From NCBI GenBank assembly GCA_021647625.1, contig JAKIUJ010000021.1, positions 1 through 32,982 of the forward strand: a stretch of 32,982 nt of DNA. The letters run 5' to 3'. Under the pieces are notes generated by a model that saw only the letters and a list, made by a program, of their open reading frames with translations, was not told the DNA's origin and searched no databases. This document shows positions 20,051-32,979 of the stretch, one piece after another. The stretch comes from Desulfobacula sp. (lineage in GTDB: Bacteria > Desulfobacterota > Desulfobacteria > Desulfobacterales > Desulfobacteraceae). Position 1 is the first letter of the stretch. Every line of letters starts with the position of its first letter. The position numbers and the translations under genes are program-made.

Positions 20051-22984
20051 ATGAAAGTTAACATCCGGGACGTTAAAGAGTTTGTCAAAGGGTTTAAGGG
20101 CAAACCCCTGGTTAATGTTACCATTGCTCTTATGCAGATTACTGTAATAATACTGGTTGGATTTTATTTTTTTTTATCAACCCAGAAGGCAAATGATGCG
20201 GCTTTTAATTTGAATCAACATGTTCGTTCAGCAAAAATTGCAGGAAAAATTGAACAATATTTTGAAAATCTGTCAGGTTCACTGAATACTTTATGCAAAA
20301 TCCCGTTTATACGAGAATTTGATGAACAAAAAACCCGTGAAATGCTGGCTCTGGAATTTAAGGATCTTAAACCTCATGGGATAAATGATATCGCTGTAAT
20401 GGACTCAAAAGGAACCATCAGATACGCGGTTAACGCTAAAGAGGTAGAAGGCAGAAATTTTTCCTGGCGCCAATATTATAAAGATGTAAAAACCATGGGG
20501 CGAAGCAGTCACTACATCTTACAATTTGTCGAATTCAAAGGGAGTGATACAGGTAAAAAAAGATTATTGATTGCAGCTCCCATCTTCACACAAAAAAAAT
20601 CAGACAATTTTTACAACCCTGAAAAGGATTTTAACGGCCTTATAATCTATACCCTTGAACTGGAGACCCTGGTTCACAAATTTATAATTCCCCAGGAATC
20701 TGCTGAGACCGGGCATATTTTTCTCATTGATAAAAGTTATACCTCTCTTTTCAGCTGTGATAAGCGCCTGTTTGGAAAAAATCTGTTCAAAGAGGCCGAT
20801 GGTTTTCCAAAATTCCAGAATGTATTGGAAAAAATGGTTAACGGCGGTTCAGGGCCAGGATCATATACTTTTTTTAATTTTGATGAAAATATTAAAAAAT
20901 TTGGCACTAAAATCGAAAACAAACTGATTGCCTATGCACCGATAAATTTACAAAACACCTTTTGGTCAATTGGTATATGGGCACCTAAAAAAGATGCAGT
21001 AACCAATGCCGGAAAGGCCTATGTGACAACTCTCATGCTGATTTTGTTAGTTGTTTTTATTATACTGCTTGGCCCTGCATATTCCCTGAGAGCCTATTAT
21101 TATCACAGCAGAAACCTTGAAGAAAAAGTGGATTTAAAAACCATTGAATTTAAGCAGTCCCACCAAAGACTGCTGACTATTTTGAATAATCTTGATTCTG
21201 CTGTTTATGTTGCTGATATGGAATCATATGAATTATTATTCTTAAATAAACACCTGAGCGATCTGGTTGGAGACGTAAAAGGAAAAATCTGCTGGCAGGT
21301 TCTGCATGACAATCAAACCGGACCATGTGATTTTTGTACCAATACTGACTTAATCAACCCAGATGGAAAACCATCTGGTGTGAAAATCTGGGAATTAAAA
21401 AACAAAATCAATGAAAAATGGTATGAGGTCAGGGACCAGGCCATCTCCTGGGTTGATAACAGCATTGTAAGACTCGAGATTGCAACTGACATCTCTGATA
21501 GAAAAACAGCTGAAGAAAATCTTTTGCGGGCAAACAAAGAGATGAAAAAGTTCTGCTATGTTTTAAAACAAATCAGCGGTCAGAAATCACTGGATGGCGT
21601 GGCTTCATTTTTAATTAATGAACTGGGATCCATGATCAATAATGAATGCATGCGGATTTTTATTTTTAACAGTGACTATACCAAACTTTATATTTTATCA
21701 GAAAAGGGAGCTACACTCGAAAAGAACAAGAAGACAACCCGTACAGTATTAAAAACAATTAAACAATTAAAAGGGCTTACCATATCACACACCAAAAAGA
21801 TCTTTTCTCCCCTGGTGCCGGACAACTTTCCATACCAGGAAAAACAAACCATTATTCCAATGCTGGAAGGCCATGAGCTTGATGGTGCTTTTGTAATGAT
21901 GTGCCCTGTGACTTGCCAATGCGATGAAATAGCATTAAACATGATTTCACTGATCTTAGAACAGGCATCCGGAACGATAAAACGGGCTGTATTGCATGAA
22001 GAAGAGCTGGCCGGGCTGCATTCCCGACTGATATCCTCAAAGGGTTTTCATGGCATGATCGGCATTGATTCCAAAATGCAGTCTATTTATAAATTAATCA
22101 ATGATATTGCTCCAACTGATGCCACGGTTTTAATCCAGGGTGAGAGCGGAACAGGTAAAGAGATGGTGGCCTGTGCCATTCATAAGCAGAGCCTTAGAAA
22201 AGACAATCCCTTTGTTGTTATCAATTGCGCAGCATATCCTGAAACTCTCCTGGAAAGCGAACTTTTTGGCCACGAGAAAGGTTCTTTCACCGGGGCTTCC
22301 AGACTGAAAATGGGTCGATTTGAGCAGGCTGATGGTGGAACCGTATTTCTGGATGAAATCAGCGAAATTTCCCCATCTGCCCAGATTAAGCTGCTCAGAG
22401 TTCTCCAGACACGTCAATTTGAGCGACTGGGCGGCGAAAAGACCCTGTCAGTCGAAATCCGTATACTGGCGGCCACCAATAAAAATCTTGTTGAGGAAGT
22501 CAAAGCAGGCAATTTTAGAGAAGATCTTTTCTACAGGCTTAATGTGATACCTGTCAAACTGCCTCCATTAAGGGACCGGCCAAAGGATATTTCCCTTCTG
22601 GCAAGGTATTTTCAAAACAAATTTGCCTCGATATTAGGAGAAAAACCAAAAGAATTCAATTCAACTGCTATTAGAATACTCCTGGATTACCATTGGCCGG
22701 GAAATGTAAGAGAGTTGGAAAACAGTATCGAACATGCTGTCGTTCTTGCAAAAGGCAACCGAATCAAAGCGTCCAATCTTCCTGCTGATATTTGTACAAA
22801 AGATGCTTTGAGCAAAAATGAATCACAAGGAGCAATTGCTGATAACGAAATAGTTATTTTGAAACAAATCCTTGAAGATTGCAGCTGGAATAAGCAGCGG
22901 GCGGCAAAAAGGCTGGGGATAAGTCGATCCACCCTGTACAGCAAATTAAAAAAATACAAAATCACAAAGACTGTACGTTCCTAA
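20051..22984 (+). CDS. Membrane-bound Cache-PAS-GAF sigma-54-dependent transcription activator
   Basis: 977 residues. Membrane helix 1 (about 24-43), periplasmic Cache-type sensor (about 45-315), membrane helix 2 (about 325-347). A PAS domain (about 372-490) contains CWQVLHDNQTGPCDFC, a Cys cluster that could respond to redox or bind metal. A GAF-like domain (about 510-660) follows, also with Cys (CPVTCQCDE). The sigma-54 AAA+ domain has Walker A GESGTGKE (697-704) and the sigma-54 contact loop GSFTGA (744-749, Ser in place of the common Ala). The C-terminal Fis-type HTH is WNKQRAAKRLGISRSTLYSKLKKY (about 943-966). Sensor and effector in one chain means no separate kinase is needed. Likely regulator of the convergent cytochrome operon and/or sigma-54 promoters such as that at 17271; unproven. 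Confidence 0.9.
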   Translation: MKVNIRDVKEFVKGFKGKPLVNVTIALMQITVIILVGFYFFLSTQKANDAAFNLNQHVRSAKIAGKIEQYFENLSGSLNTLCKIPFIREFDEQKTREMLALEFKDLKPHGINDIAVMDSKGTIRYAVNAKEVEGRNFSWRQYYKDVKTMGRSSHYILQFVEFKGSDTGKKRLLIAAPIFTQKKSDNFYNPEKDFNGLIIYTLELETLVHKFIIPQESAETGHIFLIDKSYTSLFSCDKRLFGKNLFKEADGFPKFQNVLEKMVNGGSGPGSYTFFNFDENIKKFGTKIENKLIAYAPINLQNTFWSIGIWAPKKDAVTNAGKAYVTTLMLILLVVFIILLGPAYSLRAYYYHSRNLEEKVDLKTIEFKQSHQRLLTILNNLDSAVYVADMESYELLFLNKHLSDLVGDVKGKICWQVLHDNQTGPCDFCTNTDLINPDGKPSGVKIWELKNKINEKWYEVRDQAISWVDNSIVRLEIATDISDRKTAEENLLRANKEMKKFCYVLKQISGQKSLDGVASFLINELGSMINNECMRIFIFNSDYTKLYILSEKGATLEKNKKTTRTVLKTIKQLKGLTISHTKKIFSPLVPDNFPYQEKQTIIPMLEGHELDGAFVMMCPVTCQCDEIALNMISLILEQASGTIKRAVLHEEELAGLHSRLISSKGFHGMIGIDSKMQSIYKLINDIAPTDATVLIQGESGTGKEMVACAIHKQSLRKDNPFVVINCAAYPETLLESELFGHEKGSFTGASRLKMGRFEQADGGTVFLDEISEISPSAQIKLLRVLQTRQFERLGGEKTLSVEIRILAATNKNLVEEVKAGNFREDLFYRLNVIPVKLPPLRDRPKDISLLARYFQNKFASILGEKPKEFNSTAIRILLDYHWPGNVRELENSIEHAVVLAKGNRIKASNLPADICTKDALSKNESQGAIADNEIVILKQILEDCSWNKQRAAKRLGISRSTLYSKLKKYKITKTVRS

Positions 22985-23904
22985 GGATTTGCTTTCATTT
23001 GGAATACACTGACTTTATTGGCAAACATTTCCACTACAAAAAGCCTGTTTTTTTCATCAACAAACAGGCCCATGGGAGTTTTAAATCTCATTATTGAACC
23101 TGTTGCAGCATCACCTATGGCGGCAAAAAGCTCTCCTGTTGTTTCAAAGATCTGGATCACCCCCATATAGCTGTCGCTTACATAAACACGATTTTTTTTA
23201 TCAATTGCAATTCCTTTTGGCCTGAAAAACTGCCCCTTTTCAACTCCCCACCCACCAATATCCGTCACATAAAGGCCTTCGGAGTTAAGTACCTGGACCC
23301 TGGTATTAATCACATCAACAATATATAAATAGCTTTCGCTGTCAACGGCCATTAAAAAAGGATATCGAAATTCCCGCTTACCGGTTCCGGGCTTTCCATA
23401 AGTTTTGATCAAATTCAGGGTCGACAGGTCATAAACAAGAACTTTGTGGTTATCATTATCAACCACATAAAATCGATTTTTTTTTTCATCAACGGCCACA
23501 TCCGTCGGATCTGAAAGCTTACTTGTTTTTGAAGGTATATTGATTTGAGAAAGAACCATCCCCTTTGAATTAAATGTCTGAACCCTGTGGTTTTGCGAAT
23601 CTGCAATAAAGACTTTCCCGGTTTGATCAATATCAATTCCAAGAGGATATAAAAACTGCCCCGGGCCCTTGCCTTTTTTTCCAAAGGATGAAATAAATTT
23701 TCCACTGCTGCTGAAAATTTTAATTTTGTTATTCACACCGTCAACAATATAAATCAGTCCCCTGGGTGATACAGCAACATCACTGGGCTCATTAAGGCCC
23801 CGGGTGATTTCAAATAGTTTGGTTGCCGGAATCAAATTTATTCCATAGGTATCAGTTACCGGCAATACCAATAGAGTTATACAAAAAAAAATCAATCGAA
23901 TCAT
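22981..23904 (-). CDS. Exported six-bladed NHL beta-propeller protein
   Basis: 307 residues with a signal peptase I signal (MIRLIFFCITLLVLPVTDTYG) and six NHL repeats. Typical blades are EPSDVAVSPRGLIYIVDGVN, YPLGIDIDQTGKVFIADSQN and RPKGIAIDKKNRVYVSDSYM. NHL propellers are binding or scaffold domains; none of the blades shows heme motifs. Last gene of the eight-gene minus-strand operon. It overlaps the upstream cytochrome gene by 4 bp and the convergent regulator gene by 4 bp. NHL proteins recur beside multiheme cytochromes in metal reducers and syntrophic sulfate reducers, suggesting a role in assembling or docking the conduit. Confidence 0.9.
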   Translation of the reverse strand: MIRLIFFCITLLVLPVTDTYGINLIPATKLFEITRGLNEPSDVAVSPRGLIYIVDGVNNKIKIFSSSGKFISSFGKKGKGPGQFLYPLGIDIDQTGKVFIADSQNHRVQTFNSKGMVLSQINIPSKTSKLSDPTDVAVDEKKNRFYVVDNDNHKVLVYDLSTLNLIKTYGKPGTGKREFRYPFLMAVDSESYLYIVDVINTRVQVLNSEGLYVTDIGGWGVEKGQFFRPKGIAIDKKNRVYVSDSYMGVIQIFETTGELFAAIGDAATGSIMRFKTPMGLFVDEKNRLFVVEMFANKVSVFQMKANP

Positions 23905-24773
23905 TTTTTGGTTTTCTCTTCTCCAAATCCAGGGTGTAATATTCTGGGCATATAAAATTCGGAATAATTTTTTATCATGCCTATTACTTCTGTACCCAGA
24001 AAAGTATTTACTCTCTTTCTTGTATACCCTAAGTCTTCAAACGGCAGCAGAGGGGCCTTTTTCTGGTGGCAGTCTTCACAGGAATAGGGCTGTTTGCTTA
24101 TTGAATTGTGTATGATTTTTTTTGCTTTTGTTTTTTGCAGTTCTGTGAGTGTTGGCTCGTTAATTTTAAAATCTGCTGCAAAATCAATTCGTTCCTGGTT
24201 GTCTATTCTTTGAAGCACACCATTTTTTTTCTCAAAGGGTATGATTTTGGATTTATAAATCCCTGGAAGAACACCATCTTTTACAGGGCTTGAAACGATA
24301 TCTCCACTGGTACGATCATACCATTTATAAACATTTGTTTTATCTTCATTTTCAAGTTTAATATGACATGTCTGGCAGGCAATAAAAGATGCATGCATAT
24401 TTGCAAAAGCCCTGATTTCCTTTATTTTGTCATGGGGAATTTCTCCATGACAGGAAATACAATAATTCCTTTTATCAGGGACCATCTCATAGTCAATATG
24501 ATGAAAATGACCCTCTATTCTTTTTACATCCAAAACCTTGTACCCAAGATAGAGCTTGACCCTTTCGTCACTGTCCAGTATCAAATCCTTAAAATTTTCT
24601 TTTTTAGGCAAATTTTTCTTTTTATCAGTGCCAGTGGAAGCAAGCTCAAATTCTTTTCTGTTTTTATATTCCTCTACGATATGTCCGAATGTCAACTGCC
24701 ATATGACAAACATAAGAAACATGGTAACCACTATGGTTGCTACAATATAAAGTTTGGTAATAATGGCTTTCAT
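23901..24773 (-). CDS. Membrane-anchored triheme c-type cytochrome
   Basis: 290 residues. One uncleaved N-terminal membrane helix (about 7-28), then a periplasmic domain with three CXXCH sites: CISCH (Cys105), CQTCH and CEDCH. Spaced His residues (GHFHHIDYEM) could serve as distal ligands. Resembles small membrane-anchored quinol-cytochrome partners in topology, though it is not a clear NapC/NirT. It overlaps the upstream cytochrome b gene by 1 bp and the downstream NHL gene by 4 bp, so the three are coupled. Probably carries electrons from the cytochrome b to the periplasm. Confidence 0.88.
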   Translation of the reverse strand: MKAIITKLYIVATIVVTMFLMFVIWQLTFGHIVEEYKNRKEFELASTGTDKKKNLPKKENFKDLILDSDERVKLYLGYKVLDVKRIEGHFHHIDYEMVPDKRNYCISCHGEIPHDKIKEIRAFANMHASFIACQTCHIKLENEDKTNVYKWYDRTSGDIVSSPVKDGVLPGIYKSKIIPFEKKNGVLQRIDNQERIDFAADFKINEPTLTELQKTKAKKIIHNSISKQPYSCEDCHQKKAPLLPFEDLGYTRKRVNTFLGTEVIGMIKNYSEFYMPRILHPGFGEEKTKK

Positions 24774-25600
24774 TAGAAAAGTTCCTTTGTCGTTTCAGAT
24801 TCACCCTTATCATAGCCAAGCGGAGGAAGGATCTGGTCTTTATATCCTTCCTTTGTCATCATCTCAACATAATATTCATAGTGTTCTTCCACCATAAGTT
24901 CCTCGGAAAGATACCCTGTAATAAAAACGGTTCCCATGGGAAATACCGACAATGAATAATGGACATTATACCAATGCCAGATAAACAAAAATAAAGCCGC
25001 CAGTAATGCTTCATCGCTGTGAGCAATCAAGGCATAATTGATTATTTCTCCCGTTAAAAACATTGAAGCCGCCTCTTCGTTCCACATTATCAGACCCGTC
25101 ATGCCGATGATTGCAATACCCCAGAAAGGAGCCCAGTAATCAAATTTTTCTTTCCAGGTGAATCTTGCGCCTTCCGGATGTTCCCCGGTCATGAAAAATA
25201 AATACTTTATCAGTGATAAAATGTCTTTTGCATCTTTTAAATTTGGAATCAAGGGTTGGTTAATAAGCAGCTTTACTAATTTTACAAGGCTTAAGCCTTT
25301 TTTGTTTTTCAAAGGCACAATTTGCCCTTTGTAGATAACAGTGACCATGTATATGACATGATAAACAAATAAACACAGCAGAACCGTACCGGCCATCCTG
25401 TGAATAATCGGTGCAATAGTTATCCCTCCAACCAGGTTATATAAATAAGGGGCCCAGAAAGTATCATGAAATTTTAACGGCATACCAGTTAGAACAAGAA
25501 TCATTACCAATGATGCAAGAATGACATGCTGAATTCTCTGGTTAACTGTGAACCGAAAAAAATATTTTTTATCATTAACTATCTTTATATGCCTTTTCAT
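24773..25600 (-). CDS. Di-heme cytochrome b, inner-membrane quinone-reactive subunit
   Basis: 275 residues with about four to five membrane helices. Histidines placed in or near helices for b-heme ligation: His25, His67, His81, His194, His209 and His214. Similar in shape to formate dehydrogenase/hydrogenase gamma subunits and to cytochrome b subunits found beside multiheme cytochromes. It would oxidise menaquinol (or reduce the quinone) and exchange electrons with the c-type cytochromes encoded on either side. Immediately downstream of the octaheme cytochrome gene with no gap. Family by topology and ligands; the quinone specificity is inferred. Confidence 0.87.
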   Translation of the reverse strand: MKRHIKIVNDKKYFFRFTVNQRIQHVILASLVMILVLTGMPLKFHDTFWAPYLYNLVGGITIAPIIHRMAGTVLLCLFVYHVIYMVTVIYKGQIVPLKNKKGLSLVKLVKLLINQPLIPNLKDAKDILSLIKYLFFMTGEHPEGARFTWKEKFDYWAPFWGIAIIGMTGLIMWNEEAASMFLTGEIINYALIAHSDEALLAALFLFIWHWYNVHYSLSVFPMGTVFITGYLSEELMVEEHYEYYVEMMTKEGYKDQILPPLGYDKGESETTKELF

Positions 25601-26818
25601 TTATTTTTTCCTCCTCCGGGAAAGGGTTGGAAACAGCCGGCGAATTGAATCCAGAAGCATAATCCCCAGCAAAGGAAGAAGTGTCCCTCCGGTTAATATA
25701 ATGAATGCTGATTCAAAATAGTATCGTTTCGGATCCTGTGTTTTGCTGAATTCTGCATGGACCTTAAATTGAGCAAGCCTTGGCGTTGCTTTGGGATGAC
25801 ACTCTATATTTGAGCAGGTTTTGTATTTATTATTTTCATGTGTGGAAGACAATGTGTTTTTGGCACTCAACATCTGGTGCACTGATTCTCCTCTGTTGAC
25901 ATGGCAGTCAAGACAGTCTGGAATCCTTTCATCCAGAAACTCCGCAGCTTTGCCGTGAAAACTTTCTTTATAAGTTGCAACAGCTTTAATAGACATCCCA
26001 TGTCTTTTCACAAGATTTATATCATCATGGCACCTGATACATACTTCTGTAATATTTTTAGGATTCCTGCTTCTTCGCAGACGGGTGGTCACATGATTGT
26101 AGAAACGATAGATAAATTCATCTTTTTTATGGCATACCCTGCACCTGCCTATTGACTGATCGGAAATTCCAGGCATCATTGTTTTATTTAAAGAAACCGG
26201 GCGGTATAAAGGATTATCATGGCATTTCTTACATGTCGGCCGGTCTTCTGGAAATTTTTTGAGTTGTTTGGTCTCATCCAGTTTACCATGCACACTGTTT
26301 TCTAAAAATTGAGCAACATCTTTGTGAGAAAATTTTTGTTCGCTGGAAGGCTCTATTATATGGCACTGGGTTAGACAATCCACTTTTTTTGCAGGATCAT
26401 GGGGTATTTTTTTTATATCTGTATGACATCCTTCACATTTCACCTTGGCATGCATGCTCGAATTAAAGGTTTTTTCATTCACGTATAAAAGCCTGAAAAT
26501 GCCCTTGTCTCCTTCAATTCGGCTTAACCCCGGATATTTATGACATAAGAGGCAATTTCCAATGTCTGCTGCAACAGCTATTTTCGGGCTGCTCAAGACA
26601 AAGCATAATACCAACAAGCTTAAGGCCCACTCAAAAATAACTTTACATTTTGCGAGCCGATTCATCCTGCCCGACTGCGTTGTGAAAACACGGCATATCT
26701 CGATATGCCTTTGGTTCCACGCCTTACCGGCCAGGCTAATCAACTTGCAAAATTGGTAATTAATTTTTGAGTGAGCCCTTAGTAAAAAAAATGTTTTGTG
26801 AACCGGATTTTGTGTCAT
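25601..26818 (-). CDS. Membrane-anchored octaheme c-type cytochrome; signal region split by an inserted repeat
   Basis: 405 residues from ATG 26818 (GAGGGAG just upstream), or 354 from an internal ATG at 26665. Eight heme sites: CLLCH, CEGCH, CLTQCH (CX3CH), CKKCH, CRVCH, CIRCH, CLDCH and CSNIECH (CX4CH). A C-terminal membrane helix (FIILTGGTLLPLLGIMLL) is followed by a basic tail, so it is anchored facing the periplasm. Residues about 14-66 are encoded by a palindromic repeat (26621-26781) inserted in frame within the signal peptide. MTQNPVHKTFFLL and SLLVLCFVLSSPKIAVAA look like the two halves of the original signal. Starting at 26665 gives MNRLAKCKVIFEWALSLLVL.., which is a good signal peptide by itself. 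Confidence 0.87.
   Translation of the reverse strand: MTQNPVHKTFFLLRAHSKINYQFCKLISLAGKAWNQRHIEICRVFTTQSGRMNRLAKCKVIFEWALSLLVLCFVLSSPKIAVAADIGNCLLCHKYPGLSRIEGDKGIFRLLYVNEKTFNSSMHAKVKCEGCHTDIKKIPHDPAKKVDCLTQCHIIEPSSEQKFSHKDVAQFLENSVHGKLDETKQLKKFPEDRPTCKKCHDNPLYRPVSLNKTMMPGISDQSIGRCRVCHKKDEFIYRFYNHVTTRLRRSRNPKNITEVCIRCHDDINLVKRHGMSIKAVATYKESFHGKAAEFLDERIPDCLDCHVNRGESVHQMLSAKNTLSSTHENNKYKTCSNIECHPKATPRLAQFKVHAEFSKTQDPKRYYFESAFIILTGGTLLPLLGIMLLDSIRRLFPTLSRRRKK
26621..26781. repeat. MITE-like palindrome inserted in the octaheme cytochrome gene
   Basis: About 160 bp, imperfectly palindromic over its whole length. Ends are TAAGGCCCACTCAAAAAT (left) and, inverted, TAAGGGCTCACTCAAAAAT (right). The centre is GGCATAT-CTCG-ATATGCC (26692-26709). 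The flanks TTAA (26620-26623) and TTAG (26779-26782) could be an eroded 4-bp target duplication. The net insertion is then 159 bp, divisible by three, and the frame through it is open. Shares GGCG and CAACGNAG boxes with the element at 11614. Confidence 0.75.
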
Positions 26819-26853
26819 TGACTCCCTCTTTCAAATTAAATTTGATTTACCTT

Positions 26854-28590
26854 TCAGTTCTTTTTACCCTTCCAGTCATTAAACTCATCATACCCCCATC
26901 TCTGATGATTTCTTCCATGACAGCTTAAAAAACACTGTCCTGTAAACCTTCCTAAATCCTCAAAATATCTGTCCCCTCGATTGCTTGGTTGTACAATTGT
27001 AATATCAAAATTTATCAGATGGCTGTTGTTGGTACTATTCCCCTGCAAACTGCTGATACCGTGAGGATCGTGGCAGGCAGAACAGGGTGTCCGGTCATCA
27101 AGATGCTCCTTATGCGGAAATCCGCTCTGGTCGCTCAGAAGACTGGCTCTGCTGTGGCACTTATAGCATAAGTCGTACTCATAAGGGCTTTCCGTGGTAT
27201 AATCATTTGTATTGTAATTTTTTTCCAATAAAAACTTATAGCTTGAACCATGGGGACCTTTGGGGCCGGCTGCTTCGTCATTGTTATGGCAGTCCGTACA
27301 GCTTATGATGGTATTGCTTGAAAATCCAGACAAAAGGCTGGGCACATCAGGGTTATTTCCAACAGTCTGAACCGGATGATATGAAGGATTACCCGGAGCA
27401 AATTCCAATTGAGTATCCAGTTGCCCGATTTCCCGGGTAACAGGGTAAGAGGTGATCACATTATTTTGACCATGACATTTTGAACAGATTGAGTAGAGAT
27501 TTTGAGCATTGGCAATCTTTTGTCCATTGGAATCAATTCCCGAAACCCCCTGATTCGCACCGGATACTAAAGGAGGTCCTGGTGACTGGCTGTTATTTGC
27601 CTGGTGAGGATTATGGCAATCCACGCACTCAACATGACTGGGCACGGTGTATGAATCAAAACTCTCTGCTGCATCATGTTTATTTGAATAGTTCTGTACA
27701 GGGTGTTTATACTGTTTTGTCACCTGCATTTCAATATTTTTGGATGCAACATTTGAGTTATGACAGCCCAGACAATTATCCTCTTCAAAAGCATAATGTA
27801 AAAGTCTTTGTTTTCCTCCTGCTGAATGGGAGGTATGACAATTATTACACCCGTTTTCAGCCACAGTGGCATAATCAGCACCAGCCCAGGGATCTGTTCC
27901 CTGGCCGTTCCACTGGGCATTGGAGGCAGAATGAGAACTCAGTACCCAACCCGTTCGCGAATGACAGGCAGTGCACAGACCCGAATATTGATTTGACATT
28001 ACCAGAAAATTATTAAAGGCATCATCATGGGGATTATGGCATGCTGTGCATTGCAGAATCCGGTCATCTTCAAGCTTAATTTGTTCAGGCAGGGTCGACG
28101 GCAGTTCAAGCTCCGTATTTGAAACCGCAAGACTTGTGTCATAAACAAATGAGACAGGATGATCATCGGATAAGTCCGTTCCAAGGTTTGATTCTCCAGG
28201 CGGCATTAAACGAATACCACCGACAAAAACGACCTCATCAGGCCTTGAAACAAGCCCGCCAAGGGCAATTGTTCCGTCATGGCAGCTTAAACACTGCCGG
28301 GAAGCTCCGGTGGGCTGCCCAGGCGTTGCATGGAGGGTTGAACTGGCATATGGGGTATAAGTTGTTGCCTGGGCGCTATGGTTCCACAAAAAAGGAATAT
28401 CTTTTGTTGCTCCGTGGGGGACATGGCAGAATATGCATATCTCATCTTCGGTGGCGGCCTTGTTAGCGCCGGGTCCTGTTACCGATAAATTGTGTTTGGT
28501 AAGACTTATACTCCCGGGAAATGCACTGGAAAAAACAAACAATATCATTAAAACGGCAGCCGGCAGATATATGGAAATATGCTTAACCAT
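26854..28590 (-). CDS. Exported dodecaheme c-type cytochrome
   Basis: 578 residues with a signal peptide (MVKHISIYLPAAVLMILFVF..) and twelve heme sites. Eleven are CXXCH (CIFCH, CLSCH, CTACH twice, CNNCH, CLGCH, CVDCH, CSKCH, CTDCH, CYKCH, CSACH) and one near the C-terminus is CFLSCH (CX3CH). Doubled-CXXCH-type motifs with CHNPH/CHVPHG signatures match the large outer-surface or periplasm-spanning cytochromes of metal reducers and syntrophs. No lipobox and no C-terminal anchor. ATG 28590 has AAGGA six bases upstream and overlaps the preceding NHL lipoprotein gene by 8 bp. Probably the main conductor across the periplasm or through the beta-barrel two genes upstream. Confidence 0.92.
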   Translation of the reverse strand: MVKHISIYLPAAVLMILFVFSSAFPGSISLTKHNLSVTGPGANKAATEDEICIFCHVPHGATKDIPFLWNHSAQATTYTPYASSTLHATPGQPTGASRQCLSCHDGTIALGGLVSRPDEVVFVGGIRLMPPGESNLGTDLSDDHPVSFVYDTSLAVSNTELELPSTLPEQIKLEDDRILQCTACHNPHDDAFNNFLVMSNQYSGLCTACHSRTGWVLSSHSASNAQWNGQGTDPWAGADYATVAENGCNNCHTSHSAGGKQRLLHYAFEEDNCLGCHNSNVASKNIEMQVTKQYKHPVQNYSNKHDAAESFDSYTVPSHVECVDCHNPHQANNSQSPGPPLVSGANQGVSGIDSNGQKIANAQNLYSICSKCHGQNNVITSYPVTREIGQLDTQLEFAPGNPSYHPVQTVGNNPDVPSLLSGFSSNTIISCTDCHNNDEAAGPKGPHGSSYKFLLEKNYNTNDYTTESPYEYDLCYKCHSRASLLSDQSGFPHKEHLDDRTPCSACHDPHGISSLQGNSTNNSHLINFDITIVQPSNRGDRYFEDLGRFTGQCFLSCHGRNHQRWGYDEFNDWKGKKN

Positions 28591-29701
28591 TGTTATCCTT
28601 TACCAGTTCAGGCGGCGTTTTCAAAAATTGAAAAATCTGTATCCGCTTGTTATAAGAATCTGCAACATATATCTTGTCATTTTTATCTATAAAAATACCG
28701 GTTGGCAGCCAGAACTGCCCTGATTGATTGCCATGGCTGCCAAAAGCCATTAAAAGCCTGTTCTGCTTATCAAATATTTGAATATTATCAAACAGGTTGT
28801 CCACAACATAAATATTGCCTTCACTGTCCGAAGCCACGCCTTTGGGTCTTGTAAAATAACCGGGATTATCCCCTGCACTGCCAAATGAGCGTATAAAAAT
28901 TCCTTTGGGTGAAAAAATCTGGATTCTAAAGTTGAGCGAATCAGAAACGATTATGTTTCCATTTTTTTCAACAAAAATATTTGTGGGAAAATGCAGCCAG
29001 CCGTCTCTTGTCCCTCCTCTGCCGAACATTCCTGTTAAATTGAGTGTTTCAAGATCGTAACGGAAGATATTTGCACTTTTGGTATCAACAACAAGAAGCT
29101 CGGAAGTTTTTTCATTTATGGCAACTCCGGTGGGTCTCTCAAAAACACCTTTCCCGATTTGTCCGGCATATTTTTTTCCATTATTTATAAAAATTTTCAC
29201 AACTCCCTGCTGGGAGTCACTGACAAAAATTCTTTTGTCTTTATCATCTATTGCCAGGTCAATGGGAGATAAAAAGGGAGATAAAAAAGGGGCCTTATTG
29301 TTTGGGAAAGCATAATATTCTTTTTGCTGAACATTAAAAACATGCACAATTTTAAGATAGGTGTCCACAACATAAAGATTGCCGTTTGAATCGGTTTCAA
29401 CGCCATATGGCGAAACAATTGAATTTATTGTCTTTCCTGCAAGATAATCAAAAATTTTTTGAAAAAATCCTTTTTTAATCTTAAAATCCATAGGATTCGA
29501 AACAGAAGATAAAAATCTTATCCGAGCGGTCTCAGGTTCTTTTGGCCATACAAGAACAGGCTTTATTGCATCATTAACCGGCACAGTATTTTTCTGACAG
29601 GATGCAAACAAGCTGACAAAAATCAGTAACGCCGCAATCACCCTTGAATAGTGCCTTACCGAAAACTCGTGTTTGGACGAATATGTGTATCTGGCTACCA
29701 T
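28583..29701 (-). CDS. NHL beta-propeller lipoprotein
   Basis: 372 residues. Lipoprotein signal with lipobox LFASC (Cys about 35) after an unusually long 20-residue n-region (YSSKHEFSVRHY), which is encoded by a fragment of the repeat family (29649-29680). Six NHL blades, e.g. RPTGVAINEKTSELLVVDTK, RPKGVASDSEGNIYVVDNLF and LPTGIFIDKNDKIYVADSYN. The gene overlaps the beta-barrel gene by 7 bp and the dodecaheme gene by 8 bp. Likely outer-membrane anchored and close to the barrel, as a scaffold or docking part of the conduit. No catalytic motif seen. Confidence 0.9.
   Translation of the reverse strand: MVARYTYSSKHEFSVRHYSRVIAALLIFVSLFASCQKNTVPVNDAIKPVLVWPKEPETARIRFLSSVSNPMDFKIKKGFFQKIFDYLAGKTINSIVSPYGVETDSNGNLYVVDTYLKIVHVFNVQQKEYYAFPNNKAPFLSPFLSPIDLAIDDKDKRIFVSDSQQGVVKIFINNGKKYAGQIGKGVFERPTGVAINEKTSELLVVDTKSANIFRYDLETLNLTGMFGRGGTRDGWLHFPTNIFVEKNGNIIVSDSLNFRIQIFSPKGIFIRSFGSAGDNPGYFTRPKGVASDSEGNIYVVDNLFDNIQIFDKQNRLLMAFGSHGNQSGQFWLPTGIFIDKNDKIYVADSYNKRIQIFQFLKTPPELVKDNNG
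29649..29680. repeat. End fragment of the 11614 repeat family inside an NHL gene
   Basis: Matches 11594-11625 at 29 of 32 positions (shared core CGTGTTTGGACGA). Only the terminal piece is present; the rest of the palindrome is absent. It encodes the n-region of the NHL lipoprotein signal peptide. Confidence 0.7.
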
Positions 29702-31653
29702 AGACTCCTGGACACTCTAAAATAAATTGAGTTAAGCTGCCGTGATTGACTTGATGCACCATCTTTTTCATAAATAAATATGTACTTGATACTGGTGCTC
29801 CAGATTCCATAAAACATATCAACCTCTGCTGAAAAACCATGATCCAATGTATCTATTGAGTCTCCGGAAATCCCGTTTCTATAACCTTCAAGACTTATCT
29901 TCCAGGATCTTGACGGAGCATAATCAACTTGAGATCTTAATAGATAAAATGTTTCATTTTCATTGATATCTTTAAATTTTGAAACTCCATAGATTGCAGA
30001 CAACATGGTAAAAACACTTCTTGAATACCTGTATGATATAGCTTGCTCAGCAGTCCATCTTGAATTGGAAGTTCCGGATTCACTATTTGTATTCTGATAA
30101 AACAGTCTGGTTCTGGACCATTTGACGTCCCAGGCTATGTCACCTGTCTGGATAACATCTTTGTCCAGGTAATCAGGTGGTACACCGCCTTTATAAAACT
30201 GCTCATACCGGTTATACAGGTAACTTATAGATAAAGGTTCAATTGGGATATAGGTAATCCCGTATGACTGACTCAAGGTTGCATCATCATAGTTTGAAGG
30301 ATTATCAAATTGATAACTTACCAGAACATTTTCCCCATCGGCAATGGCCCCAAGGGGCACCCGCCTTATTCTTACAAAGGGTGTCACCTGGGTAATGATA
30401 TAGTCGATATTTTCTATATATCTGATTGAACTGGCTGCATTTGTAACAATGATAGAACCCGGATCAATATATTTCTCATTCAAAAAAACCAGTTGTGTTG
30501 TGTTCAGGGTATGCGGCTCATTTAATGTTTGAATCAATCCATCAGAAACATTCCTGAATCTGATCCGGTAATTATTATTAGAGATTAAACGAAATTCTCC
30601 CAGAGGTGTACTCTTTTGATAATCCAGTCCCATCCCGCTTGAATAGATCTGTTCGCTTCCTCCCTGATACTCTCTGGCTGATGCCTCTCCTGTTAAGTTT
30701 GCCTGGAGATTATCAAATATATCATAGTTCAATCCAGCTGTTATAGTCATTGTTTCACTGTTAAATTCGCCGTATTTTGTATTTGAATAGTATGCCTGCC
30801 CGTTAAAATCTAATTCTTCTGTTTGTTCCCAGAAAAAATTTTGATTAAAGGTAATTGTAGAATTATTGAACAAAGTGCCTTTTGTTTCTCTATATTGCAG
30901 GTAAGAAATAAGGGAGCGTCTTTGATCTTTTGAAAATTCCCATATATTGTTAAGATCGCTATCCAATGTTTTAACGTTTGAAAAAAAACCATTCGTATTC
31001 TGGGTCTTATCAATAAAAGAAATATTGAGTGAGGATTTATTATTTTCCTTTGGCAGCCTCATGTCCAGTTTGAATTCATCTTCCACATCAATTGAACTGT
31101 AAAAACCTGTCTGATTGATGCTGTTGTGTACATATCCAATTATGGTGGGAAGTGTGCGGTATTTTAATACCAGGTTTGTTCCATAGGTTGTTGCCAGAGA
31201 ATCGGATTTACTGGCAAAGGAACCTGTTATATCATTGTCCTGCTTTCTTGCAAAAAACTGCAGCGTATAGGGTTTGAACTGGAAAACAGAAGCATCAAAA
31301 TAATATCCCATAAAATACGATTTAATATTATTTGAGGCAGATATAGTACCAATAGTATGATCTTCAAATGTCTGGGTCCATTCAGGAGAAAGACCGAGCT
31401 TAAAATCGAAAAGGGCTGGATGATAAACCCAGCCTTTGGTTTCAATGTTCAAGTGCTCAGTATAATCATTTATGGTATCTGTGGAATTGATATTTTTACC
31501 TTTCCTGATTTCCCGGGTAGCTTCGTATGAGAGATCTGCAGCAAGCTTTGGTCTGCTGAAATAAAAAATTTTTTGAGCATTTGCGGGATGAAAGCCCAAA
31601 ACACAAAAAATAATGGTGATAAATATAGTATAATATACACAGGTGTTCTGCAT
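29695..31653 (-). CDS. Large outer-membrane beta-barrel (porin-like conduit candidate)
   Basis: 652 residues with a signal peptide ending in PANA-Q near residue 26. The rest alternates polar and aromatic/hydrophobic residues in many predicted strands and ends in an aromatic C-terminal residue (YFRVSRSLW), the BamA-recognised beta-signal. No heme motif. Size and gene context match the porin partner of porin-cytochrome complexes, in which a barrel holds a multiheme cytochrome across the outer membrane. I cannot assign it to a named family (MtrB, OmbB, ExtD) by sequence. It lies between two NHL lipoprotein genes, with 38 bp to the upstream one. Confidence 0.85.
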   Translation of the reverse strand: MQNTCVYYTIFITIIFCVLGFHPANAQKIFYFSRPKLAADLSYEATREIRKGKNINSTDTINDYTEHLNIETKGWVYHPALFDFKLGLSPEWTQTFEDHTIGTISASNNIKSYFMGYYFDASVFQFKPYTLQFFARKQDNDITGSFASKSDSLATTYGTNLVLKYRTLPTIIGYVHNSINQTGFYSSIDVEDEFKLDMRLPKENNKSSLNISFIDKTQNTNGFFSNVKTLDSDLNNIWEFSKDQRRSLISYLQYRETKGTLFNNSTITFNQNFFWEQTEELDFNGQAYYSNTKYGEFNSETMTITAGLNYDIFDNLQANLTGEASAREYQGGSEQIYSSGMGLDYQKSTPLGEFRLISNNNYRIRFRNVSDGLIQTLNEPHTLNTTQLVFLNEKYIDPGSIIVTNAASSIRYIENIDYIITQVTPFVRIRRVPLGAIADGENVLVSYQFDNPSNYDDATLSQSYGITYIPIEPLSISYLYNRYEQFYKGGVPPDYLDKDVIQTGDIAWDVKWSRTRLFYQNTNSESGTSNSRWTAEQAISYRYSRSVFTMLSAIYGVSKFKDINENETFYLLRSQVDYAPSRSWKISLEGYRNGISGDSIDTLDHGFSAEVDMFYGIWSTSIKYIFIYEKDGASSQSRQLNSIYFRVSRSLW

Positions 31654-31691
31654 CTGTTTAGTTTTGAATAAACGATTTAATTATTGAACCG

Positions 31692-32801
31692 TTAATCACC
31701 TCCTCCGGATAGGGATCCACCAATCCAGTCACCAAATCCATAAACATTGATTTTATCTTTTCCAAAAGTATTGAGTACATAAAAAACATACTTGAGCTTA
31801 AAATCCTTGTCTGCAAACTTGTTAAAATATTCCACATTATCATAGTCTACATGAATTCCTGCAGGCAGATACATACTTCCCGGAGCAGAACCTGATCCGC
31901 CAAAGAAAAAGAGAAGTTTACCGGACTTGTCATCAAATATCTGGACATTTTCAAAAGCTGCATCCGCAACATACAAATGCCCTTCTTTGTCTATGGCAAT
32001 ACCTTTAGGTCTGGCAAAAGATCCCAGAGTGTCACCGATTTGACCGAAAGTTTTAATATGTCTGCCCTGGGCATCTAATTTCTGAATTCTGTAGTTAAAA
32101 GCGTCATTGACAAAAATATTACCTTCCAGGTCAGTCACAACACGGGTAGGTTTATAGAACTGGCCTTGTTTGAGTCCACCTGTTCCAATAGCATTTATTA
32201 TTTTTCCGGTCAATTTATCTAATACAAAAATTTTATTTTTTTCAAGATCTGCAACATAAATCTTATTTTCAAAAACAGCAACATCAACAGGTTTACCAAA
32301 TATCTCTTTGTTGCCATACGCTTTTAAAAACTTATTATCCGGACCAAATGCAATAATCTGCTTTCTTCTCATGTCTGCAATATATTTGGTCTCATCATCT
32401 GAGACCCAGATGCCTGATGGATCGATTAAGGCCCCAAGCCTCTGGTCTTTTAGATAATCAATCTGTTTATTGATTAAATCTATGATTATTAGTTTATTAA
32501 ATGATTTATCCAGAACAAAAAGTTTTCCTCTGGTAGAACCAATATCATAGGGTTTTTCCAAACGCTTGATGGACACTTCTTTTCCGAGCAGAAATTCCCT
32601 GAAATCACTCTTTTTTTCCTGTCCCAGATCATCTTCGCTTGAAATGCTTGTCAAAAACTGCAGTTTAGGCAGTTGTGGCAGCGGTGGATAAAAGATTACC
32701 TCCTGCTCCATTTTTTTTACCGTGGGAGCTGCGCATCCAGAAAGCAATATCAGGACTGCCAGTAAAAAAAGTTTTATCTCAATCCATCTCATTTTCAACA
32801 T
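31692..32801 (-). CDS. NHL beta-propeller lipoprotein, first gene of the conduit operon in view
   Basis: 369 residues from ATG 32801 (MLKMRW); ATG 32792 (MRWIEIK) is 11 bases after AAGGA and equally possible. The frame stays open to 32954, but that extension is made of tandem repeats (AIGVSAIGVSAIG) and lacks a signal. Lipoprotein signal LFLLAVLILLSGC, then six NHL-like blades such as KPVDVAVFENKIYVADLE and RPKGIAIDKEGHLYVADAAF. The sixth blade is stretched. The C-terminus is Gly-rich (WIGGSLSGGGD). Similar to the NHL lipoprotein at 28583 and probably a paralogue. Outer-membrane-anchored scaffold role inferred from context. Confidence 0.88.
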   Translation of the reverse strand: MLKMRWIEIKLFLLAVLILLSGCAAPTVKKMEQEVIFYPPLPQLPKLQFLTSISSEDDLGQEKKSDFREFLLGKEVSIKRLEKPYDIGSTRGKLFVLDKSFNKLIIIDLINKQIDYLKDQRLGALIDPSGIWVSDDETKYIADMRRKQIIAFGPDNKFLKAYGNKEIFGKPVDVAVFENKIYVADLEKNKIFVLDKLTGKIINAIGTGGLKQGQFYKPTRVVTDLEGNIFVNDAFNYRIQKLDAQGRHIKTFGQIGDTLGSFARPKGIAIDKEGHLYVADAAFENVQIFDDKSGKLLFFFGGSGSAPGSMYLPAGIHVDYDNVEYFNKFADKDFKLKYVFYVLNTFGKDKINVYGFGDWIGGSLSGGGD

Positions 32802-32860
32802 AATCCTTTTTTCCAGGGGCGAGTTCAAAGTTTGTGGACTCGTAAAAAATCCATTCGAAG

Positions 32861-32903
32861 CTCCAATGGCTGAAACTCCAATGGCTGAAACTCCGATGGC
32901 TAA
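32861..32903. repeat. 15-bp tandem repeat, 2.9 copies
   Basis: CTCCAATGGCTGAAA at 32861-32875 and 32876-32890, identical, then a partial third copy with one change (32891-32903). It lies in the leader of the NHL lipoprotein gene and inside the arm of the edge palindrome. On the minus strand it would encode AIGVS repeats, but translation there is unlikely. Confidence 0.85.
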
Positions 32904-32939
32904 GCACAAAAGTTCGATATACAAGGCGTAAATTTTTTT

Positions 32940-32979
32940 ACAGACACTCAACAATACATACAGTATGTTAAGTGTCTGT
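32940..32979. repeat. Central palindrome of a repeat element cut by the window edge
   Basis: ACAGACACTCAACA (32940-32953) and TGTTAAGTGTCTGT (32966-32979) are inverted repeats with 13 of 14 matches. The core CATAC-A-GTATG lies between. The preceding AAGGCGTAAATTTTTTTA (32923-32940) resembles GAGGCGCAAGAAAT in the element at 11614, so this is probably the middle of a further family member whose right arm lies outside. Confidence 0.6.

Follow-up and report, generated by a model that had tools for sequence, protein, structure and literature searches.

An octaheme c-type cytochrome gene carries a palindromic mobile element of the MITE type in frame between the two halves of its original signal peptide. 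On balance, we favor the view that the insertion is tolerated and near neutral, with the native start codon and export kept and no repair of the gene involved. The window, i.e. the whole stretch of 32,982 nucleotides that was analyzed, is contig C262 of a 4.27-Mb draft genome comprising 332 contigs. The cytochrome ORF is free of frameshifts and stops and matches the Pfam families Cytochrome_C7 (8.5e-10) and MtrC/MtrF-like (4.9e-8). Downstream of it lie a b-type cytochrome (PF01292, 2.2e-9) and then a further heme protein, for which every Pfam match falls below the cut-offs. The minus-strand cluster at 22981-32954 contains multiheme cytochromes, a b-type cytochrome, NHL-repeat-like proteins, and a 652-aa protein whose Pfam match to a barrel is sub-threshold; we take this cluster to resemble porin-cytochrome electron conduits. 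The features of the interrupted leader are collected in the table, in which G005 denotes the genome holding the closest orthologue.

Table. Features of the octaheme cytochrome gene and of the element inserted in its leader (window coordinates).
Feature	Position	Strand	Details and basis
Octaheme c-type cytochrome gene	25601..26818	minus	405-codon ORF, 8 heme-binding motifs, C-terminal hydrophobic segment
Native ATG	26816..26818	minus	Shine-Dalgarno GAGGGAG directly upstream (26822-26828), conserved in G005
First half of original signal, MTQNPVHKTFFLL	26780..26818	minus	Translation; comparison with G005
TAA, target duplication copy on the gene-upstream side	26779..26781	minus	24 of 32 two-ended copies with identical 3-bp flanks
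Palindromic non-autonomous mobile element, 156 bp, GGGCTCACTCAAAAAT...ATTTTTGAGTGGGCCT	26623..26778	minus	About 40 own-genome copies, ends and flanks, hairpin
Element ATG, candidate for a second start (form of 354 residues)	26663..26665	minus	Shared by 41 of the 42 copies aligned
TAA, target duplication copy on the gene-downstream side	26620..26622	minus	Flank comparison among copies
Second half of original signal: core and cleavage region SLLVLCFVLSSPKIAVAA, then DIGNCLLCH	26567..26620	minus	Comparison with G005 and relatives

The element is short, multicopy, and dispersed, and it has terminal inverted repeats and a target-site duplication, which are the hallmarks of a MITE. In its own genome (4.27 Mb) it has 50 matches, far more than chance would give. 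Of these, 41 are in the query orientation and spread over many contigs, two of them being probably pieces of one copy, and the remaining nine are on the opposite strand, where the palindrome matches itself. Ends and flanks were inspected in 43 copies (30 from the own genome and 13 from relatives). Both inverted ends are present with at most three mismatches in 32 of them, and 24 of these two-ended copies have identical 3-bp flanks, which are TAA or TTA in 23 cases. One end is poor or missing in L005, L008, L015, L019, L022, L023, L025, L026, L028, L029, and L030, for which lengths and frame counts are rough. Twelve of the 19 two-ended own copies are exactly 156 bp long; hence the net insertion is most often 159 bp here, a length divisible by three. 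In the octaheme gene, the 156-bp element and the 3-bp duplication lengthen the cytochrome frame by 53 codons, none of which is a stop. The initial annotation had described the in-frame insertion of a mobile repeat into a signal peptide, a 159-bp net insertion leaving the frame open, and signal halves now 53 residues apart. The family of about 40 copies with inverted ends, the TAA duplication, the empty site in G005, the 53 stop-free codons, and the leader itself bear out all three statements.

Together with its borders (171 nt), the element folds end to end as a hairpin of -72.2 kcal/mol, with a z score of -7.2 against 200 shuffles (-41.5 kcal/mol). When copies are folded singly, 9–12 of the first 12 bases pair with the last 14 in all 32 two-ended copies. 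An RNAalifold consensus of 24 copies, many rows of which are end-trimmed, is weak (-13.4 kcal/mol), with a two-sided change in one of 38 pairs, and lends no support to conserved pairing. Aside from the standard form, there are mini-elements of about 40–52 bp in which hardly anything separates the two inverted ends (L068:771-823, L080:1496-1548, L087:1502-1542, L090:186-225, and L099:2495-2534). Among the matches listed, pairs of inverted ends about 305–320 bp apart also occur (G000:C306:7399-7709, C238:842-1147, and C203:7327-7645), which are perhaps nested or expanded copies.

The insertion in the octaheme leader is derived. Among 58 genomes searched for orthologues, the own one included, the sole close orthologue is that of G005 (81% identity), in which the octaheme gene has no insert and the site is empty. 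G005 contains no full-length element, only two 23-bp end-like matches. Removal of the element and one TAA yields MTQNPVHKTFFLLSLLVLCFVLSSPKIAVAA, which aligns without gaps with MTQKKVFKTILVISTSVLCFILSNPKFSIAS of G005, both leaders having 31 residues. The named genome collection contains 33 loci encoding relatives, one of which is G005 itself, two are distant (24–25% identity), and the others show 49–71% identity. Searches at E up to 0.01 with the element (blastn) and its peptide (tblastn) found neither in any of these 33 loci, while the control L001, the window copy, was recovered. The empty site in G005 and the absence of the element from all 33 loci establish the direction of the change, and they provide the insert-free orthologue that had been sought in relatives, contrary to the refuting case in which every orthologue would contain the sequence. 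In the relatives' N-termini displayed, (A/S)D(I/V/M)GNCLLCHKYPG usually follows immediately on a short hydrophobic signal; in L123 the open stretch upstream is longer and unrelated to the element.

Judged from the sequence, translation most likely begins at the native ATG 26818 and gives a 405-residue precursor. Its Shine-Dalgarno sequence GAGGGAG forms an anti-Shine-Dalgarno duplex of -8.0 kcal/mol, equal to that in G005, and opening of the region from -15 to +12 costs 5.1 kcal/mol. The initial annotation had instead proposed that the element supplies a new start codon and thereby repaired the gene. As it stated, the element ATG 26665 is in frame and would place a short basic n-region (MNRLAKCK) before the old core. 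A precursor started there, wholly or partly, would have 354 residues and a 33-residue signal, with 13 residues of charge +2 preceding the core, and its N-terminus would resemble an ordinary signal of normal length. The presence of this ATG in nearly every aligned copy indicates that it is the element's own and not an adaptation to the octaheme gene. Its best Shine-Dalgarno pairing (-5.9 kcal/mol) abuts the start codon, however, and at a spacing of 5–10 nt the best value is -1.1 kcal/mol. The ATG also lies within the hairpin, where opening costs 20.4 kcal/mol, and the native ATG persists upstream in frame with the cytochrome. We therefore consider initiation at the element ATG quite unlikely, although ribosomes coming from the native start may unwind the hairpin and a minor product from 26665 is possible. 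The notion of repair is not supported either, since the element and the duplication add up to 159 bp and the frame was never broken. More speculatively, the element could act as a portable start, in which the conserved ATG and the outward-open frame MNRLxKCKVIFEWAL, basic and then hydrophobic, would equip genes hit in the proper phase with a second N-terminus that functions; insertion into a signal peptide would then lead to two precursors of a single cytochrome that differ in export route or rate. We regard this as very improbable.

Element ends reach into other ORFs as well. In L065:1501-1656 (G014), the element ATG reads in frame into a 231-codon ORF, which by eye looks thiamine-phosphate-synthase-like, and in L188:1-53 (G019) it reads in frame into a 301-codon ORF. 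By eye, both ORFs have a plausible native start a few codons downstream of the element ATG readout. L017 has an ORF that resembles a response regulator and is at least 512 codons long; at its 3' end, the last 12 codons come from an element end.

The insertion lengthened the region ahead of the hydrophobic core from 11 to 64 residues, with a net charge of +9, and the leader from 31 to 84 residues. Against the favored view, an n-region of 64 residues is unusual for a Sec substrate, and the stable hairpin, which lies 37 nt past the native start codon, could lower translation. By simple hydropathy, which was used to judge the signal, the best 11-residue hydrophobic stretch is now ALSLLVLCFVL (3.06), compared with LLSLLVLCFVL (3.25) in the empty form and VISTSVLCFIL (2.55) in G005; the first residues of the core are now supplied by the end of the element. 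By the same measure, the 405-residue form has the features of a Sec signal, namely a basic n-region, the uncharged core ALSLLVLCFVL, and the following SSPKIAVAA. The old core and cleavage region behind the 64-residue n-region thus probably still direct export. The mature part has its eight heme motifs intact, and its dN and dS relative to G005 are 0.10 and 1.63. Lineage-specific changes number 16 in the window lineage and 10 in that of G005, with 27 undecided; the 16:10 split leans toward the window lineage without significance (chi-square 1.38), and these rates, like dN/dS, mainly record the time preceding the insertion. L108-L134 (27 of the 33 loci) served as outgroups and columns with fewer than 15 outgroup residues were skipped; L135, being G005 itself, and L136-L140, being distant or partial, were omitted.

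These data also bear on the alternative that the insertion disabled export, leaving a recent pseudogene whose frame is open by chance only. The interrupted signal and the lengthening of the leader speak for such a loss, and three more related stretches in the own genome (34–41% identity) might substitute for the gene. Against the loss, the ORF has neither frameshift nor stop, the heme motifs are intact, there is no significant rate excess, and the hydrophobic core and cleavage region are retained. A very recent event would be compatible with these observations, and we rate the pseudogene as unlikely. An assembly artefact, with the interior of the element a composite of short reads from many copies or with misjoined flanks, would fit a 332-contig draft in which the repeat occurs about 40 times and some contigs break off inside copies. 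The flanks are secure, however, since in G005 the two halves form one contiguous gene. The interior is less secure, but 5% of its positions differ from the nearest copy, which means that it was not just taken over from another locus. We give this explanation hardly any credence.

The open frame itself is rare in the family. Of 180 frame-copies (30 own copies in six frames), four are stop-free and all in one frame, i.e. those of L001 (the window copy), L003, L005, and L019, with the right ends of L005 and L019 uncertain. The chance that random insertion of a random copy leaves a gene open is ca. 2%, given one phase in three and one strand in two, and the window copy is best seen as a survivor. 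In the alignment of 42 copies, from which L030 at a contig end was left out, stops in the cytochrome frame concentrate in three columns (18, 12, and 11 of the 41 other copies). L003, one of the two closest own copies, has this frame open too and lies in no convincing gene. Hence, the open copy probably existed ahead of the insertion into the octaheme gene. When 30 of the 41 own matches were checked, 11 overlapped an ORF of at least 90 aa, and only L001 and L003 lay wholly inside one. The host ORF of L003 has 100 aa, shares 85 bp with the end of a 485-aa ORF, and looks spurious. With genes judged by eye, the window copy alone among the 30 is convincingly intragenic. The other 11 own matches, in 10 regions, gave five overlapping open stretches, none longer than 150 aa.

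It could be argued that the family is selected to be coding and that the palindrome survives by keeping one frame open. Frame +2 of the family consensus does have the fewest stops of the six (one in own copies and none in relatives), and it is the sole frame that is ever stop-free (four of 30 own copies). Its synonymous fraction, however, is 0.240, below the 0.267 ± 0.021 expected, and changes to stop amount to 0.068, above the expected 0.043 ± 0.009. Changes to stop fall furthest short of expectation in minus-strand frame 1 (0.005 compared with 0.023 ± 0.007), which has three stops in the consensus and is therefore not coding. The scarcity of intragenic copies points the same way. As the substitution test reveals no codon constraint in frame +2, the idea of a coding repeat was rejected, and we hold it to be extremely unlikely.

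Across the genus, the element has matches in 14 of 26 genomes, counting the own one; these are long stretches in seven genomes and only short end-like pieces in the rest. Plasmids yielded one distant copy of 74.5% identity on a plasmid of Desulfosarcina sp. BuS5, situated between annotated genes (L198:3001-3157); this plasmid is a possible vehicle for the element. No element match was found in phage records, one exact 26-base element pattern had no match in viral contigs, and 601 bases had no match in Rfam at E up to 1. An autonomous partner was found neither in 17 loci taken from short end-only or divergent matches nor in 20 regions around TIR matches, of which L100, L102, and L103 are contig-end stubs of less than 300 bp; the own-genome ends are the first-ranked matches listed of 143. 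Nine DDE_Tnp_1 loci have no adjoining element end with two or fewer mismatches (one match with three mismatches, L149), and a DUF4096 search in four genomes revealed no partner. A DDE transposase sharing the ends of the element was accordingly not found in the four genomes by way of DDE_Tnp_1 or DUF4096. The excerpt of one source on Tc1/mariner transposases names a Desulfobacula sequence among the homologues in its tree (PMC4495683).

Taken together, the tolerated insertion would have arisen as follows. A MITE-type element, presumably mobilised in trans by a transposase, would have inserted at a TAA in the octaheme leader after the lineage had split from that of G005. The length of the addition (156 + 3 bp), its phase, and a copy that was stop-free in that frame kept the ORF open. 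Translation from the native ATG 26818 would run through the hairpin and give the 405-residue precursor. The 84-residue leader of this precursor would start with the basic n-region of 64 residues, behind which the former hydrophobic core and cleavage region follow. The protein would probably still be exported by Sec, cleaved near AVAA, and loaded with heme. This reading draws on the repeat family with its inverted ends and TWA duplications; on the empty site with gapless leaders and the absence of element and peptide from the 33 loci; on a native Shine-Dalgarno sequence that is conserved and accessible, while that of the element ATG is not; on the retained hydrophobic stretch (3.06) and the intact mature part; and on the open frame of L003 outside genes, which probably predates the insertion.

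The window case is a clean example of a bacterial MITE lying within a signal peptide, the frame unbroken, and a close orthologue shows the empty site. It offers a natural way of testing what length and basicity a Sec n-region can reach before cytochrome export fails, and it puts a MITE family on record. In the open-access literature, searched with a few terms, we found neither a description of this family, nor a closer case of a MITE inside a signal peptide, nor MITEs in connection with Desulfobacula. The portion of PMC5771137 available to us has nothing joining MITEs with signal peptides.

MITEs of the IS5/PIF-Harbinger type have inverted ends starting with GGG and 3-bp TWA target duplications. 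The window element shares both features, while no autonomous partner was found here in the regions searched, and we do not assign it to that group. Bacterial MITEs fused in frame with genes are known, foremost the Rickettsia palindromic elements (RPEs), which according to excerpts of two reviews are palindromic repeats of about 105–150 bp that occur in frame within protein genes unrelated to one another; for one RPE-bearing gene, gmk, the product is said there to be translated and to have enzymatic activity (PMC10969869, PMC2229807). Like RPEs, the window element is palindromic and in frame in a protein gene. As far as those excerpts go, RPEs are often intragenic with a conserved peptide, whereas in the window family one of 30 copies is convincingly intragenic and frame +2 is unconstrained. 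Frequent in-frame intragenic insertion and a conserved peptide, which mark RPE-type repeats, are thus not seen in the window family. In Yersinia, according to the excerpted account, the repeat RU-2 (YPAL) makes up residues 1–30 of YPO1552, a putative exported protein, and contributes part of the signal peptide predicted for it (Delihas 2007, PMC2759123). In contrast to RU-2 as given in that account, the window element sits between the halves of the original signal with the native start kept. The window case hence unites two known outcomes, in-frame fusion of a MITE and a repeat in a signal peptide, and its merits are its position between the two halves of one signal and, beyond what that account gives for RU-2, an orthologue with the empty site.
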